A stretch of DNA of 64,000 nt from Comamonas odontotermitis (lineage in GTDB: Bacteria > Pseudomonadota > Gammaproteobacteria > Burkholderiales > Burkholderiaceae_C), in NCBI RefSeq assembly GCF_020080045.1, contig NZ_CP083451.1, positions 620,001 to 684,000 of the forward strand, given 5' to 3'. Every line of letters begins with the position of its first letter. The stretch's first letter is position 1. The translations under genes were made by a program, and so were the position numbers. The notes under the pieces are model-generated. The model ran no database searches, was not told the origin of the DNA, and saw nothing but the letters and a program-made list of their open reading frames with translations. Below, piece by piece: positions 48,456 to 54,016 of this stretch.

Positions 48456-48647
48456 ATTTTTCTGATTTGTTTGTATGTGCTCACATTCTTGTTTTGTGAG
48501 GATGAACAATGGTTCAATGCTGCAGGGCGTTCTTTTGGATGGGCCCCGTTAGTACATTTGGACTATTTACCAAATGTTTCTGAAGGGGCAGTATCGGGGC
48601 TCAGACCATGCGCCCCATACGCCGGCGCTGGCAAGGAGAGACAGCGC

Positions 48648-49220
48648 ATGCCAGCCCCTGCAGAAATTCCCCGCCTTCACCCGTTCCGCTCCACGTTGCG
48701 CAAGGGTCTGCTCCGTGGCCTTCTGCTGGTTTGCGTGCAGCCCGTGTGGGCGCAAGGTACTGTGGCCAGCGATGCAACTGCAGGTTCTGTCGGTCTGCAG
48801 CCGCATGGCGCGCTCAGCGTGCAATACCGTGGAGCCGCGAAGCGGTTGAGTGCGGAGCAAATCGCGGCGCTGCCACAAAGCACCACGGTCACTGCAACGC
48901 CCTGGACGGATGGCGTATCGCGCTTCACCGGGCCGTTGGCGCGCGATGTCCTGCAAGCGGCAGGGGTGCGCATCACTCCAGGAATGACGGTGCAAGCCCA
49001 GGCTCTCAATGGCTACACCGTGAGTATTCCTGCCCAGGATTTTCAGCGCTGGCCCGTGGTGCTGGCTTTCAGCATGGATGGCAAGGCGCTGACACGGCGC
49101 GACAAGGGGCCGCTGTGGATCATCTATCCACGGGACAGCGACACCGTGCTGCAGGACGCCAAGTATGACCACCGCTGGGCCTGGCAGCTGAGCCAATTGC
49201 TTGTCAGTGATGCCCCGTAA
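48648..49220 (+). CDS. Periplasmic protein with sulfite-oxidase/YedY-like (Moco-binding) fold, no cofactor cysteine
   Basis: 190 residues. The N-terminal 32 residues look like a signal peptide (LRKGLLRGLLLVCVQPVWAQG). The mature part has FTGPLARDVLQAAGVR, LNGYTVSIPAQDF and KGPLWIIYPRD, recalling the oxidoreductase molybdopterin-binding domain. It contains no Cys in the mature chain, so it lacks the molybdenum ligand and is probably a binding or sensory protein rather than an enzyme. The start follows GCAAGGAGAGACAGCGC. A response regulator and a kinase follow on the same strand. Confidence 0.75.
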   Translation: MPAPAEIPRLHPFRSTLRKGLLRGLLLVCVQPVWAQGTVASDATAGSVGLQPHGALSVQYRGAAKRLSAEQIAALPQSTTVTATPWTDGVSRFTGPLARDVLQAAGVRITPGMTVQAQALNGYTVSIPAQDFQRWPVVLAFSMDGKALTRRDKGPLWIIYPRDSDTVLQDAKYDHRWAWQLSQLLVSDAP

Positions 49221-49242
49221 GCGCTACCAGAAAGAGTCAGGC

Positions 49243-50316
49243 ATGCTCAAAGCTATTCGCCGTCCGCTGATCCTGTGTGTAGAGGACGAGCCCTTGCTGC
49301 TGCGTGATCTGTGCGACGAACTGGAAGAGGCCGGTTACCAGCCCATCGGCGTTCCCGATGTTCCTGCCGCGCTGCTGGTTCTGTCGCGGATGAAGCCTTC
49401 GCTCATTCTGTGCGATGTTGGTCTGCCCGGCCAGAGCGGCCTGGATCTGCTGGCGGAGTTGCGCGAGACGGATGCACATTCCAGCGTTCCATTCCTGCTG
49501 CTGACGGCGCTCAGCGATCGCGAGCATGTGCTGCGGGGCGCGCGCGCGGGTGCGGACGACTACCTGATCAAGCCGGTCGATTACGACCTGCTGCTGGCCA
49601 CCGTGGACGCCCGGCTCGCCAAGGTGCAGCGTCTTCAGCGTCTGCAACGCGATGCCTTGCAGCGCAGCCTGGACGAGGTGCACAGGCACTGGCACGGGGT
49701 GCTTGACAGCCTGGGCCACTGCGCCCTGGTCTGTGACGGTCAGCTGTCGATCCAGTTTGCCAACCGGCAGGCCTATGCGCAGTGCCATGGCCAAGCACAG
49801 CAAGACAGCCCGCTGGTTGTCGATGCAGCGGGGCAGATGGTCCTGCGTCAGGTGTTGGCCCAGCATCCCGGGGTGCGTCAATTTCTGCGCAGCCAGCAGG
49901 AGTCGGCCAGCTTCGATGTGCCAGCTGTTCCTGGCGGCCCGCCCTATTGGTGCCTGGCCATCCAGTCACTCTCGGGCAAGGACGGTGGCGACGAGGAGGA
50001 GCGCGGGGACGGGGCACCGGATGCGCGCGGCCAGCGCTTCGCGCTTTTCATCAATAGCCTGCAGCAATCCGTCAAACCCAGCGCCGAAGCCCTGGCGCGC
50101 CGTTTTGCACTGACGCCTGCTGAAACGCAGGTGGCCCGGCTGCTGGTGGATGGCATGAGCAAGCAGCAGATGTGCGCGCAACTGCAGGTCAGTGCCAGCA
50201 CCATGGCCTTTCATCTGCGCAACATGTTTGCCAAAACCCAGACAGGCCGCCAGGCCGAACTGGTGGCCGTATTGCTGACGGCGGCGTTGGGCGCATCCGC
50301 GCCGGCGTCGCACTGA
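49243..50316 (+). CDS. Response regulator: receiver, PAS-like middle domain and LuxR helix-turn-helix
   Basis: 357 residues from the ATG at 49243. The receiver covers residues 1-130 (EDEP, phosphoacceptor Asp58 in LILCDVGLPG, Lys in YLIKPVDYD). Residues about 150-265 form a PAS-like domain (DSLGHCALVCDGQLSIQFAN). The C-terminal 70 residues are a GerE/LuxR helix-turn-helix (LTPAETQVARLLVDGMSKQQ, then MAFHLRNMFAKT). The frame is open upstream to 49201 through overlapping starts. A kinase follows by 13 bases. Confidence 0.85.
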   Translation: MLKAIRRPLILCVEDEPLLLRDLCDELEEAGYQPIGVPDVPAALLVLSRMKPSLILCDVGLPGQSGLDLLAELRETDAHSSVPFLLLTALSDREHVLRGARAGADDYLIKPVDYDLLLATVDARLAKVQRLQRLQRDALQRSLDEVHRHWHGVLDSLGHCALVCDGQLSIQFANRQAYAQCHGQAQQDSPLVVDAAGQMVLRQVLAQHPGVRQFLRSQQESASFDVPAVPGGPPYWCLAIQSLSGKDGGDEEERGDGAPDARGQRFALFINSLQQSVKPSAEALARRFALTPAETQVARLLVDGMSKQQMCAQLQVSASTMAFHLRNMFAKTQTGRQAELVAVLLTAALGASAPASH

Positions 50317-50329
50317 CACGGGGCCTGCC

Positions 50330-51766
50330 ATGCCTGATCTGCCCATCCGTCGCGGCCTGCAGTACCGGTTGACGCTGGCTGCAACGGTGTTGTTTTTCGC
50401 GGGCAGCCTCGTGGTGGTCTGGCAGCTGCTGGTTTTGCACCGGGAGCTGAGCCAGCGCGAAGGCGAAAACATGGTCTGGGCACTGGCACAGGCCCAGCAC
50501 CAAGCAACGCTGCTGGAACGCGATCTGGCCCGCCTGCGCTTGCAGCAAAGCGATGCGGAAGATATTCATTTGCAGGCGGATCTGCTGCACAGCCGCTTGT
50601 CCTTGCTGACGGATGGCCCGCAGCGCCGCATTTTGCGGCATTACGGGCAGCTTGATGCGCTGCTGCCCGCCATGGCCGCATTCGAGCAGGTGGATCTGCT
50701 GCAGCTTTTGATCGGCACGGACAACCCCGTTGCCCAGCAGGAGCTGCGCACGCTGATTGCTGCGCTGGCGGCGGCGGGCAACCAGGTCATGGTGCGCGAG
50801 AGAGAAGAGAAGAGCCGGCGCCTGGACCAGCTGGAGCAATGGATCAAGGCGGCTTTTGCTGCCATAGGCATGGTGGCCCTGTGCGGCGGTTGGTTGATGT
50901 GGCAACTGGTGGCTGCCTTGCAGCGCCAGCGCACCAATGCCCGCACCATTGCCGCGCAGCGCGATGCGCTGCAGCAGACGATCCATGATCTGCACCGCGC
51001 CCAGAGCGCGACCGAGACCTACCGCAACTTCGTCTCGCTGGTGTCTCACCAGTTCCGCACACCGCTGGCGGTGATCGACTCCACCGCGCAGCGGCTGATG
51101 CGCCAGGCCAGGCGCAGCGGTGGTGAACAGTCCGAGCAGGTGCTGGAGCGCATGGGCGAGACCCGCCATACGGTCGAGGGGCTGACGCGTCTGCTCGACA
51201 GCGTGCTCACCAGCGTCAAGCTCGACGGTGGCGGTATCCAGTTGCAGGCCCGGCCCGTCAATCTGGCAGAGCTGGCCAGCCATGTGGTGGAAGGCAATAA
51301 ACCCATGCTGGGCGAGCGCCAGGTGAGCAGTGAGTGCCAGGGCCCGCCTGCGGACTACGTTTGTGCGGGTGATGCACAGCTGTTGATTCACCTGCTTCAC
51401 AACCTGCTGGCCAATGCCTGCAAGTACACGCCAGCTGGCAGCCCGCTGGACCTGCGTCTGGAACGTGCCGGGGACCGGCTGCATTGCTCGGTGCGTGACC
51501 ATGGCTCGGGCGTTGCTGCAGAAGAGCTGCCGCTGCTCTTTGAACGCTTCTACCGCAGCGCGCGCAGCCATGGAAGCGAAGGCACGGGGCTGGGCTTGTA
51601 CCTGGCGCGGGCCATTGCCCGGCTGCACGGCGGTGATCTGAACGCCTTCCTCCCCCCGGATGGCGGCCTTGCCTTCACCTTGAGTCTGCCGGTGCTCAAT
51701 AAAAATAGGGATGGTGTCTCCCTAGACAACGCGCAAGCTTGCAGCACTGCCGAAAGCGAACGGTAG
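50330..51766 (+). CDS. Membrane sensor histidine kinase
   Basis: 478 residues. The first helix is at about 12-34 and the second at about 178-200, enclosing a largely helical periplasmic sensor of about 140 residues. A coiled coil (QRDALQQTIHDLHRAQSATE) leads to the H box FVSLVSHQFRTPLAVID with His240, the N box NLLANACKYTP, and GSGVAAEELPLLFERFYR with GTGLGLYLARA. It is the presumed partner of the preceding LuxR-type regulator. Confidence 0.9.
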   Translation: MPDLPIRRGLQYRLTLAATVLFFAGSLVVVWQLLVLHRELSQREGENMVWALAQAQHQATLLERDLARLRLQQSDAEDIHLQADLLHSRLSLLTDGPQRRILRHYGQLDALLPAMAAFEQVDLLQLLIGTDNPVAQQELRTLIAALAAAGNQVMVREREEKSRRLDQLEQWIKAAFAAIGMVALCGGWLMWQLVAALQRQRTNARTIAAQRDALQQTIHDLHRAQSATETYRNFVSLVSHQFRTPLAVIDSTAQRLMRQARRSGGEQSEQVLERMGETRHTVEGLTRLLDSVLTSVKLDGGGIQLQARPVNLAELASHVVEGNKPMLGERQVSSECQGPPADYVCAGDAQLLIHLLHNLLANACKYTPAGSPLDLRLERAGDRLHCSVRDHGSGVAAEELPLLFERFYRSARSHGSEGTGLGLYLARAIARLHGGDLNAFLPPDGGLAFTLSLPVLNKNRDGVSLDNAQACSTAESER

Positions 51767-51855
51767 CCGGATGCGGCGAGGCACCGTTTGAAAACATGCC
51801 CGTAATTCCAATGCTCTCGTGAAATTTCAGACCACTGTTACAAATTAATCTGCCC

Positions 51856-51877
51856 ACCCTGTCCAAACGGACGGGGT
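51856..51877 (+). terminator. Weak hairpin after the kinase gene
   Basis: ACCCTGTCC and GGACGGGGT pair around AAAC with one wobble; the following bases are AT-rich but not a clean T-run. The 188-base gap to the next gene is markedly AT-rich near 51880-51930, in contrast to its surroundings. Confidence 0.35.
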
Positions 51878-51953
51878 TTAAAAATTCAATATTTTTTACA
51901 TTTATTGAAATTTTTATACAGATGCAATGTTTGGTTTGCATCGAGGAAGAGGC

Positions 51954-52829
51954 ATGTTGAAAAATAAACCAAGGAGACGAGGACGCGAGGTCCTCAAGCC
52001 AGGCATCGCCATCATGGCCACCGGCCTGGCGCTTGCGGCACAGGCAGCTGGCATCCAATTGCCCGCCGGTACCAGCATTACCACCGGCGCAGGCACTTCC
52101 ATCCTGCTGGGGTGCGGCGATCTGAACGTTGGCGGCACCTACACCCAGCAAGGCGATGCGGCACTGGGCGGGTTGGGGCAGCTTGGTCTGCAGCAAGGCG
52201 GGGTATTCACCGCGGGTGCGGGCGCCGTGGCCTTGTCAGGCTCTCTGGATGTGGCTGCGGGCACCTTCAATGCGGGGGCCAGTACAGTGACCATGGGGCC
52301 GGGCGATTCCGGCTGTGGCATTGCACAGGGCCAGATCAAAGGGTCTCCTAGCTTTTACAAGTGGAAAGTCATCGGCTCCGTTGCACCGGACGCGCCCAGC
52401 TACACCGTTGTCATGCCCGTGGCGCAGACCACCACGGTCACGGCCCTGCTGGAACTCAGTGGTGTCAATCTCGTCTCGGGAAGCGCGGCCAACCCCTCCA
52501 TGCAAGCCAAGGCCACGCCAGAGCCCGCACGCGCTCCGGTCGGTACGCAGGCGTGGCTGAAATACACCGGCGCTGCACCACCCAGTATCAGCAATGTAGG
52601 TGTCAACGGTGTGCAGTCACTGGACACCTGGCTGGCGGAAGACCAGACCAACAAGATCGCGGGCGGCATTGCCTACAACTGGTTTGCGCGCGCCTTGGTG
52701 TCTGATCCCGAGCCGGGTGGCGTGGCCCAGCCGGCACCCGTTCCCGCGCTGGGTCTGGGCGGCCTGCTGGCGCTCAGCGCACTGGTAGGAGCTGCGGCAG
52801 TCGCGAGCCGGCGCCGCTTCAGGTACTGA
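51954..52829 (+). CDS. Secreted protein with IPTL/PEP-CTERM-like C-terminal sorting tail
   Basis: 291 residues. The start at 51954 follows GAGGAAGAGGC. Basic N-terminal residues (KNKPRRRGREVLK) are followed by a hydrophobic signal ending AAQAA. The middle is Gly/Thr/Ala-rich (TSITTGAGTSILLG, AGAVALSGSLDVAAGTFNAG), reminiscent of beta-helical surface proteins. The C-terminus is VPALG, a hydrophobic helix (LGGLLALSALVGAAAVAS) and RRRF, the tripartite layout of exosortase-type or IPTL-CTERM signals. Function is unknown; surface anchoring or export is inferred. Confidence 0.7.
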   Translation: MLKNKPRRRGREVLKPGIAIMATGLALAAQAAGIQLPAGTSITTGAGTSILLGCGDLNVGGTYTQQGDAALGGLGQLGLQQGGVFTAGAGAVALSGSLDVAAGTFNAGASTVTMGPGDSGCGIAQGQIKGSPSFYKWKVIGSVAPDAPSYTVVMPVAQTTTVTALLELSGVNLVSGSAANPSMQAKATPEPARAPVGTQAWLKYTGAAPPSISNVGVNGVQSLDTWLAEDQTNKIAGGIAYNWFARALVSDPEPGGVAQPAPVPALGLGGLLALSALVGAAAVASRRRFRY

Positions 52830-52909
52830 TCCACCGAAAGTCTTTCTTTCCTGGCCTGCGTTTCCATTCGCATGGCAGGCACCCACCCAAGAATATTCAA
52901 GGACACAAC

Positions 52910-53617
52910 ATGACATCCAACCGGTTTTCCCTGCAGGCGCTGAGCATGGCCTGCGCGGCCCTGTTCAGCCTGGGCAATGCAAATGCTGCCAACGACATCA
53001 TTGTGGATGGCGGTGAAGGTGGCGCCGTCATCATCAAGAACAATGGCCAGGCCACGGCAAGCTTCGCCAGCGGCGGCATGATCGTTCCCAGTGTGGCCTC
53101 CAGTGAAACGAAGAAGTACGTGTGCGCCACCCCGGACGGCACCTTGGAGAGCTGTGCTGGTGGCACAGGGCCGCAGGGGCCTGCAGGTGAAGCGGGTTCC
53201 GCCGGCGCGGTAGGCCCGGTGGGGCCAGCTGGCCCTCAAGGCCTGGAGGGCCCCCAAGGCCCGCAAGGTGCTCCAGGGCCGCAAGGCATTCAAGGGCTCA
53301 AGGGCGATACCGGCACTGCGGATGCCTCGGTGGTTTTTATTACCTACAAGAGCGGCAGGATTGTTCAGGGCCGGGGTGATATCAAGATCACTTGCCCGGT
53401 GGGACATATTGCGCTGAACGGCTGGGCCACGTACACCAAAGACGGTGGCATTTCGGCCAATGCCCGTACTGAATCAAGCTTTCTGGAGACAACAGACCAG
53501 AGCAGCAAGATGCAGACCTGGTACATCATCTCCCAGCGGGATGGTCTTTTTGGCTACTTCTATAACGCCTACGCAGTTTGCATGAAGGTTGACCTGCAGG
53601 CCGCTGTGTCGCAATAA
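52910..53617 (+). CDS. Secreted collagen-like protein
   Basis: 235 residues. A signal peptide ends near NANAAND. Residues about 85-140 form a collagen-like run of Gly-X-Y triplets beginning GPQGPAGEAGSAGAVGPVG and ending near GIQGLKGDTG. The C-terminal domain (about 90 residues, TYKSGRIVQGRGDIKITCPVG) has two cysteines and no family I recognise; it could be a trimeric head. Bacterial collagen-like proteins form triple helices on cell or spore surfaces. It lies 80 bases after the CTERM-like gene and 47 bases before RNase P RNA. Confidence 0.82.
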   Translation: MTSNRFSLQALSMACAALFSLGNANAANDIIVDGGEGGAVIIKNNGQATASFASGGMIVPSVASSETKKYVCATPDGTLESCAGGTGPQGPAGEAGSAGAVGPVGPAGPQGLEGPQGPQGAPGPQGIQGLKGDTGTADASVVFITYKSGRIVQGRGDIKITCPVGHIALNGWATYTKDGGISANARTESSFLETTDQSSKMQTWYIISQRDGLFGYFYNAYAVCMKVDLQAAVSQ

Positions 53618-53663: not shown

Positions 53664-54004
53664 GTGAAGCCTGCCAGACCGCCGCTGGTGCAAGTGCCGA
53701 AAGGCCGCACTGGAGGAACGTCCGGACTGCACAGGACAGCGTAGCAGCTAACGGCTGCCCACCGTGAGGTGAGGATCAGAGCAACAGAGACGAGTCCGGG
53801 GGGCGTACCGCAAGGTAAACCACCCGGGGTGAAACGGGCAATCTCTACGCGCAGCAATACCAAGTAGGCCAGCGTTGATGTGGTTCCGCAGAGTTGGCGG
53901 GTAGGTAGCGTCGAGCCGTGGTGGCGACACCCGGCCCAGAGTAATGGCGGTCACGCCCGGGGCAACCCGGGTGCACAGAATCCGGCTTATCGGCAGACTT
54001 CACA
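53664..54004 (+). ncRNA. rnpB: RNase P RNA (type A)
   Basis: About 341 nt. P1 is formed by GTGAAGCCTGCC at the 5' end and GGCAGACTTCAC at the 3' end. Conserved core blocks are in the expected order: GAGGAACGTCCGGACTGCA, ACAGAGACGAGTC, GGTGAAACGG, AAGTAGGCCAG and ACAGAATCCGGCTTATCGGC. A GATAAT -10 hexamer at 53651-53656 sits seven bases before the inferred 5' end. It is the catalytic RNA that matures tRNA 5' ends. Confidence 0.97.
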
Positions 54005-54016
54005 CTTCTTGCAAAG

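Follow-up and report, generated by a model that had tools for sequence, protein, structure and literature searches.

A PruR-type signalling cassette next to an IPTL-CTERM and collagen-like gene pair in Comamonas odontotermitis, with a candidate regulatory site between them

Results

Layout of the locus

Five genes on the forward strand of a 64,000-nucleotide stretch of Comamonas odontotermitis, hereafter the window (positions 620001-684000 of contig C1 of a 4.83-Mb genome, labelled G000), place the components of a signalling system before two genes for secreted proteins. They occupy positions 48648..53617 of the window, and ORF (open reading frame) prediction and domain scans recover all of them, co-directional, as an original prediction made from the letters alone had listed them. 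The first gene (48648..49220) encodes a PruR-type periplasmic pterin-binding protein of 190 amino acids (aa), assigned by PF00174, a match to 7KOS/7KOU, and kept residues. It is followed by a LuxR-type response regulator of 357 aa (49243..50316), which has full-length relatives and consists of a receiver (PF00072), a middle region, and a GerE domain (PF00196), and by a sensor histidine kinase of 478 aa (50330..51766), recognised by HisKA and HATPase_c domains, hydropathy, and a structural model. We call these three genes the cassette. Behind them lie the genes of a secreted IPTL-CTERM-type protein of 291 aa (51954..52829, alternative ORF start 51927; tail profiles, relatives, and model) and of a collagen-like secreted protein of 235 aa (52910..53617; PF01391 and triplet count), whose Gly-X-Y run spans 53159-53320. 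Signal peptides had also been predicted: by eye, PruR and the collagen-like protein carry them, but neither was flagged by a 19-residue hydropathy scan with a threshold of 1.5.

The intergenic gaps measure, in gene order, 22, 13, 187, and 80 bp, and the RNase P RNA (53666-54005) starts 48 bp past the collagen-like gene. The five genes hardly form a single operon, given the 187 AT-rich bases that separate the kinase from the IPTL gene (start 51954); this wide gap suggests a promoter before the IPTL gene, although a sigma-70 scan gave no promoter-like site in the region. The gap contains an operator-like dyad, CCCTGTCCAAACGGACGGGG (51857..51876), which sequence comparison makes a candidate site of the regulator, and a -10-like TACATT (51897..51902), picked out by consensus match only.

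The first gene product as PruR

By its homologies and kept residues, the product of gene 1 is PruR, a periplasmic pterin-binding protein. It scores 36.7 bits against PF00174 (cut-off 24), matches 7KOS/7KOU with phmmer at E 1e-25, and also matches 7RKB, 7KP2, and 7KOM. Of the PDB sequences, four distinct chains matched at E <= 0.01, three of them named as pterin-binding and one as an Oxidored_molyb-domain protein. PruR proteins are secreted, of ~170 aa and of sulfite-oxidase-type fold, and the 190-aa product, with a leader recognised by eye, agrees with this. It had been described as a protein of the molybdenum cofactor (Moco) fold lacking the cofactor cysteine, and this is borne out: TPW is present and the sole cysteine, residue 29, lies within the leader. 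The available text of PMC13259868 reports that PruR lacks the Moco cysteine, has a Trp in its place, and contacts pterin through Trp160 and Tyr104. Tyr123 and Trp179 of the gene 1 product correspond to Tyr104 and Trp160 of Agrobacterium tumefaciens PruR (in the 7KOS alignment, both conserved residues fall at a constant offset of 19 below these numbers, the Tyr at position 85 and the Trp at 141 of the chain). Among 84 aligned PruR sequences (the window, G017, L038, L039, and 80 loci of the family; G and L labels denote genomes and fetched loci), the Tyr is kept in 83 and the Trp in all 84. A Moco enzyme is ruled out, since the mature part has no cysteine and is closest to solved pterin-binding proteins.

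SUOX-like proteins of 25 other genomes of the genus (~30-39% identity) were considered as PruR orthologues and ruled out by the regions that we opened. Six of these eight regions, from seven genomes, hold a 218-239-aa gene, L140 gave a weak hit without a clear ORF, L142 gave none, and the window's regulator and kinase have no match in any of the eight. In the 25 genomes (L012-L037), the SUOX-like protein of ~218-239 aa stands alone near an integrase-like gene, with an RR-type leader (twin-arginine-translocation-like, by eye) in several cases. A second palindrome, ACATTTGG...CCAAATGT, lies upstream of pruR at 48551-48582 and is common to the window and G017; it might serve autoregulation or be bound by a different regulator.

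Regulator, kinase, and spread of the cassette

The regulator combines receiver and LuxR/GerE domains and has D58. The kinase has HisKA and HATPase_c domains, H240, and hydrophobic spans at about residues 18-36 and 172-197, which bound a periplasmic domain (about residues 37-171) that is helical in a model made from a three-sequence alignment (predicted template modelling score 0.42). The kinase is TorS/BaeS-like, with matches to BaeS (4.9e-32 and 5.7e-28) and TorS (1.2e-24) models, but its best match is PhoR (1.5e-39), and all are under the equivalog cut-offs. A GPQ motif of the periplasmic domain is found in seven of eight kinases with PruR (the exception being G823) and in none of three without it, a pattern that we read as co-decay of this domain with PruR.

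The window's arrangement differs from the usual one. We took the best 80 of 109 matching places in 250 genomes of the family, the window's own locus excluded. In 59 of them, pruR is followed by a kinase ORF (57 of at least 600 codons), in two by a GGDEF protein, and in one by a receiver protein; 13 were left unassigned by a simple test and five loci had no suitable ORF. No regulator-like score in those loci exceeds 57 bits, whereas L038 and L039, the best two of 80 loci from a contig scan dominated by the receiver motif, reach 152 and 162. The window-type regulator was found in 6/399 genomes of the family, 5/6 genomes of a second genus (g19), and 3/398 genomes of the phylum, our own included. 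The large genome searches scored 5, 7, or 13 first-look candidates per genome, which makes absences weaker than they appear; the protein-set searches scored about 8000 candidates each. PruR, kinase, and window-type regulator occur together in all four extra-family loci examined (L038, L039, L267, and L268, the last from G823), and the complete cassette is thus known from these, G408, G833, G017, and the window. In L038, L039, and L267, the kinase follows PruR directly, whereas the window has the regulator gene between them.

Linkage of the cassette to the secreted pair

Among 53 genomes of the window's genus, the cassette's PruR is present, besides our own, only in G017 (86% identity for PruR, 91% for the regulator, and 87% for the kinase). 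After the kinase stop of G017 comes a short stretch that ends in the last codons of the collagen-like gene (its residues 213-235, 65% identical); the pair, or at least the collagen-like gene, was therefore once present and then lost. A search of the rest of the genus with the whole IPTL protein gave weak matches in three genomes, to the C-terminal half only, and a distant member of its subfamily in G051 (95 bits) has no collagen-like gene behind it. Our first reading, that G017 refuted the linkage, was given up on the evidence of g19, where the same gene order occurs. There, four of the five genomes with the regulator (G070, G198, G408, and G833) have genes for an IPTL-like and then a collagen-like protein behind the kinase (the collagen-like gene of G833 extends past the fetched stretch), and the site is another one, behind ispH-, CNNM-, and serS-like genes (named by eye, their order being in part unclear in L261 and L264) and not by rnpB. 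The IPTL bodies of g19 are 30-33% identical to that of the window, and the N-terminal parts of the collagen-like proteins are similar in alignment and not significant in BLAST. PruR is present in G408 and G833. The sixth g19 genome, G349, lacks the regulator in our search. The expectation of synteny across relatives thus holds in part: the order regulator-kinase-IPTL-collagen recurs at another site in g19, but the pair is missing in G017 and beside the four outgroup cassettes. G281 has a kinase that lacks the greater part of the periplasmic domain; behind the same dyad, the place of the pair is taken by a glycine-rich protein of 1342 aa (L261:10352-14380), which bears an IPTL-like tail.

The outgroup cassettes have other neighbours. 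The divergent genes of L038 encode a small protein without assignment and one with a VWA domain, and the nearest gene to the L267 cassette, ~1 kb away, encodes a DUF2259 protein; the surface-fibre theme is therefore not general on this evidence. The cassette of G823 (L268:1-6057) is divergent from a Flp/Tad-type row (RcpC/CpaB 5.7e-16; a weak TadE/G-like match, 0.0038, under the cut-off), and a dyad-like site lies between the two.

A conserved dyad before the IPTL gene

The kinase-IPTL gaps have YCCYRTCYRAAYGRAYGGGG in common. The five g19 sites taken alone yield the same consensus, which the window dyad fits at 20/20 positions; a first-order model expects 6e-8 such matches in a gap of 160 bp and 0.002 genome-wide. 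When 16 genomes were scanned with at most two mismatches allowed, 26 rows resulted, with one exact site each in G000, G070, G198, G281, G408, and G833, all at the kinase-IPTL position, and none in G017. These six exact matches helped define the pattern; the non-circular evidence is the comparison of the window with g19, plus the outgroup. A reversed control pattern was commoner than the dyad in the same genomes (41 matches, ~0.5 per Mb), hence there is no excess beyond the known sites and no visible wider regulon. Elsewhere, at most two mismatches were found 0 times in 0.96 Mb of the 80 PruR loci, 0 times in 0.20 Mb around other IPTL places, and once in 0.86 Mb of 78 other regulator loci, and no match with up to three mismatches occurs in 26 other loci of the IPTL subfamily. 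Three of the four cassettes outside the pattern set have near-matches, far above chance (<0.01 expected per locus): one mismatch in L038 (2488-2507, 144 bp before the PruR ORF), two in L268 (6487-6506, 195 bp before the PruR ORF), and two in L267 (7626-7645, 20 bp past the regulator stop).

The first base of the window's TACATT lies 30.5 bp from the dyad centre, and four of the other five module promoters, all but that of G281, have TAACAT at this spacing. If this box is the -10 element, the dyad is centred near -42, a usual place for activators that contact the polymerase, and the regulator therefore most likely activates.

The IPTL-collagen pair and its exosortase

The IPTL protein has the expected C-terminal tail (VPALG, helix, RRR), although by profile score alone the tail is marginal: the protein scan gives it 18.0 bits (cut-off 20.8) and TIGR04174 gives 18.7 (cut-off 20.5), but a genome scan gives 22.7. 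P0125, a relative with ~50% identity, carries PF18203 and has the NCBI name IPTL-CTERM. A structural model (mean predicted local distance difference test score 66.6) shows short regular strands at residues 34-175, which form a solenoid-like body, and a C-terminal helix with the RRR; a fold search with it gave no PDB match at E <= 0.001, the best being a putative adhesin at 0.18. The proposed search of the genome for an exosortase gave XrtH (TIGR04177, 243.5 bits, cut-off 86) and its associated membrane protein. Both are encoded at a distance of 3.44 Mb on the contig, which shrinks to ~1 Mb in the opposite direction should the contig be circular. Of 10 genomes searched, seven have XrtH (G000, G017, G070, G198, G281, G408, and G349), and it was not found in G833 (83% complete), G823, and G754; the latter two have a cassette without an adjoining IPTL gene. 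The 4.8-Mb genome G000 has 35 IPTL-CTERM matches at E <= 0.001 and a single exosortase-family match, i.e., a large sorted surface proteome.

The Gly-X-Y run noticed in the collagen-like protein is real, with 18 triplets and 35.1 bits for PF01391 (cut-off 27.2), and its association with the IPTL gene extends well beyond the cassette. A model of the IPTL body, tail excluded, found 31 places in 18 of 389 genomes of the family, of which 30 loci were taken. At 23 of these (16 genomes, 10 genera), a Gly-X-Y run of at least 15 triplets lies on the same strand 230-726 bp behind the IPTL stop, and without the four loci used to build the model the collagen-like gene is still paired at 19/26 (14 genomes, 9 genera). 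The seven unpaired loci are L284, L295, L296, L297, L299, L300, and L302, among which L295 and L299 have less than 100 bp behind the ORF, too short to show a partner. No such run lies within 2.5 kb of the 34 other IPTL places of our genome, and the 80 PruR loci, 1.92 million strand-bases in all, have none of at least 15 triplets. In the other pairs, no kinase was seen by the IPTL gene in the flanks that were fetched; a receiver-like match (47 bits) lies upstream in L289. In G187 (L309:2553-6362), a 950-codon ORF with an IPTL tail and then a collagen-like gene precede a second IPTL-collagen pair, an apparent tandem.

In the open-licence literature, we found no paper joining collagen-like proteins with exosortase, none naming exosortase H, and none on an IPTL-collagen partnership, PEP-CTERM being met together with collagen-like sequences only in ice-binding proteins. 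A search there for collagen-like proteins in Comamonadaceae led only to an actinobacterium, and broader hits were mostly Gram-positive by title.

Discussion

We think it probable that these genes wire a PruR-based three-part signalling system to a surface-fibre gene pair, with a pterin as the cue and the regulator switching the pair on. PruR would be exported and, as its homology and kept ligand residues suggest, bind a periplasmic pterin. It would then act on the periplasmic domain of the adjoining kinase, which, from domains and adjacency, probably phosphorylates the LuxR-type regulator. The latter may bind the candidate dyad before the IPTL gene, most likely activating this gene and the collagen-like one. 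Exosortase H would sort the IPTL protein, which, to judge from the recurrent pair, may expose or anchor a collagen-like fibre together with its partner. This suggests that extracellular pterins could thereby control a surface coat. The original prediction had the two-component system switch on such a coat or fibre; its regulatory link gains from the g19 order and the conserved dyad, and this central idea is better supported than we had expected.

A number of observations weigh against this interpretation. First, the nearest relative, G017, retains the cassette without both secreted genes, and the cassette therefore has or had other uses; nor were IPTL or collagen-like genes found beside the cassettes of L038, L039, L267, and L268. 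Second, the outgroup near-matches to the dyad vary in position and orientation and count as support only, and L039 has no match under three mismatches. Third, the IPTL tail falls under the family cut-off in the protein scan. Further points concern the cue and the nature of the dyad, and bear on two other explanations.

It is possible, if unlikely, that this regulation exists with a cue other than a pterin, PruR being only a structural partner of the kinase or binding another ligand. Three of the five g19 genomes with the regulator (G070, G198, and G281) keep regulator, kinase, and dyad, and no PruR was found in their loci; control there is therefore PruR-independent. The periplasmic motif of the window's kinase is W50-X7-Q58, not the W-X7-E whose glutamate is present in L039 and L267. 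Yet the ligand residues are kept in the window, and the periplasmic domain of the kinase decays where PruR is missing.

We give rather little credit to the dyad being a terminator or RNA element where the transcript of the kinase ends, or a site for some other regulator, with the two gene sets kept together without direct control. Two of the four copies folded do form hairpins (window, z -3.8; G408, z -3.9), and T residues directly follow the window stem. But the copies of G070 (z +2.0) and G281 (z +0.6) keep the motif and fold no better than shuffles, on which ground we reject a hairpin as its sole reason; moreover, near-matches lie upstream of pruR in L038 and L268, and five of six promoters keep the distance to the -10-like box. 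A chance neighbourhood, in which one of the genome's frequent IPTL genes merely came to lie with its partner beside a two-component system, would accommodate the 35 tail matches and the cassettes without the pair, but is very improbable given homologous genes in the same order at another site in g19, the dyad in common, and the collagen gene end left in G017, which indicates loss and not absence.

In a bolder form of the switch that we favour, a pterin three-component system would directly turn on a collagen fibre that has two parts and depends on the exosortase, with the XrtH-sorted solenoid protein as its dedicated anchor or assembly partner. IPTL-collagen pairs would then be a general fibre system of the family and, given the Flp/Tad-type genes and dyad near-match facing the G823 cassette, the cassettes a general pterin-to-surface-fibre switch. 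This we put forward as tentative, and rather doubtful in its full extent. In either form, the locus holds sensor, kinase, regulator, candidate operator, and candidate target within 5 kb, which makes pterin signalling via a two-component system testable with one promoter fusion. The recurrent pair, in turn, points to a candidate role for one group of exosortase H substrates, namely partnership with collagen-like proteins, testable in nine further genera.

Comparison with known systems

Among collagen-like families, Lcl (NF046116), SclA (NF038330), and SclB (NF038329) share with the window protein a Gly-X-Y stretch behind a leader, but its scores (42, 36, and 38 bits) fall short of the respective cut-offs (500, 400, and 325), and it shows no LPXTG anchor, the sorting tail being on the partner gene. 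The exosortase H/IPTL-CTERM system (TIGR04177, TIGR04174, and PF18203) is matched in XrtH, the associated membrane protein, and the VPALG-helix-RRR tail, and differs in that the window's tail is just under the protein-scan cut-offs and is coupled to a collagen-like partner.

The sensing half has described relatives, contrary to the claim that no system of this composition was known, and these make pterin the likely cue. In A. tumefaciens, according to the available text of PMC13259868, PruR-DcpA limits attachment. It likewise consists of a periplasmic pterin-binding protein with a membrane partner; there, however, the partner is a cyclic di-GMP enzyme, and here a kinase whose output is likely transcriptional. 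The same text describes PruR-linked kinases as PruR-DTB systems, i.e., PruR with a DcpA-TorS-BaeS kinase, and reports them to be widespread; in what is available of it, no response regulator is named for them. The window resembles these in that PruR neighbours a kinase which spans the membrane twice, has a periplasmic domain, and keeps the W of W-X7-E. It departs from them in its short kinase, without PAS or receiver domains and with Q for the E of the motif, in the LuxR-type regulator placed between pruR and the kinase instead of a two-gene operon, and in its linked output genes with a candidate operator before them.

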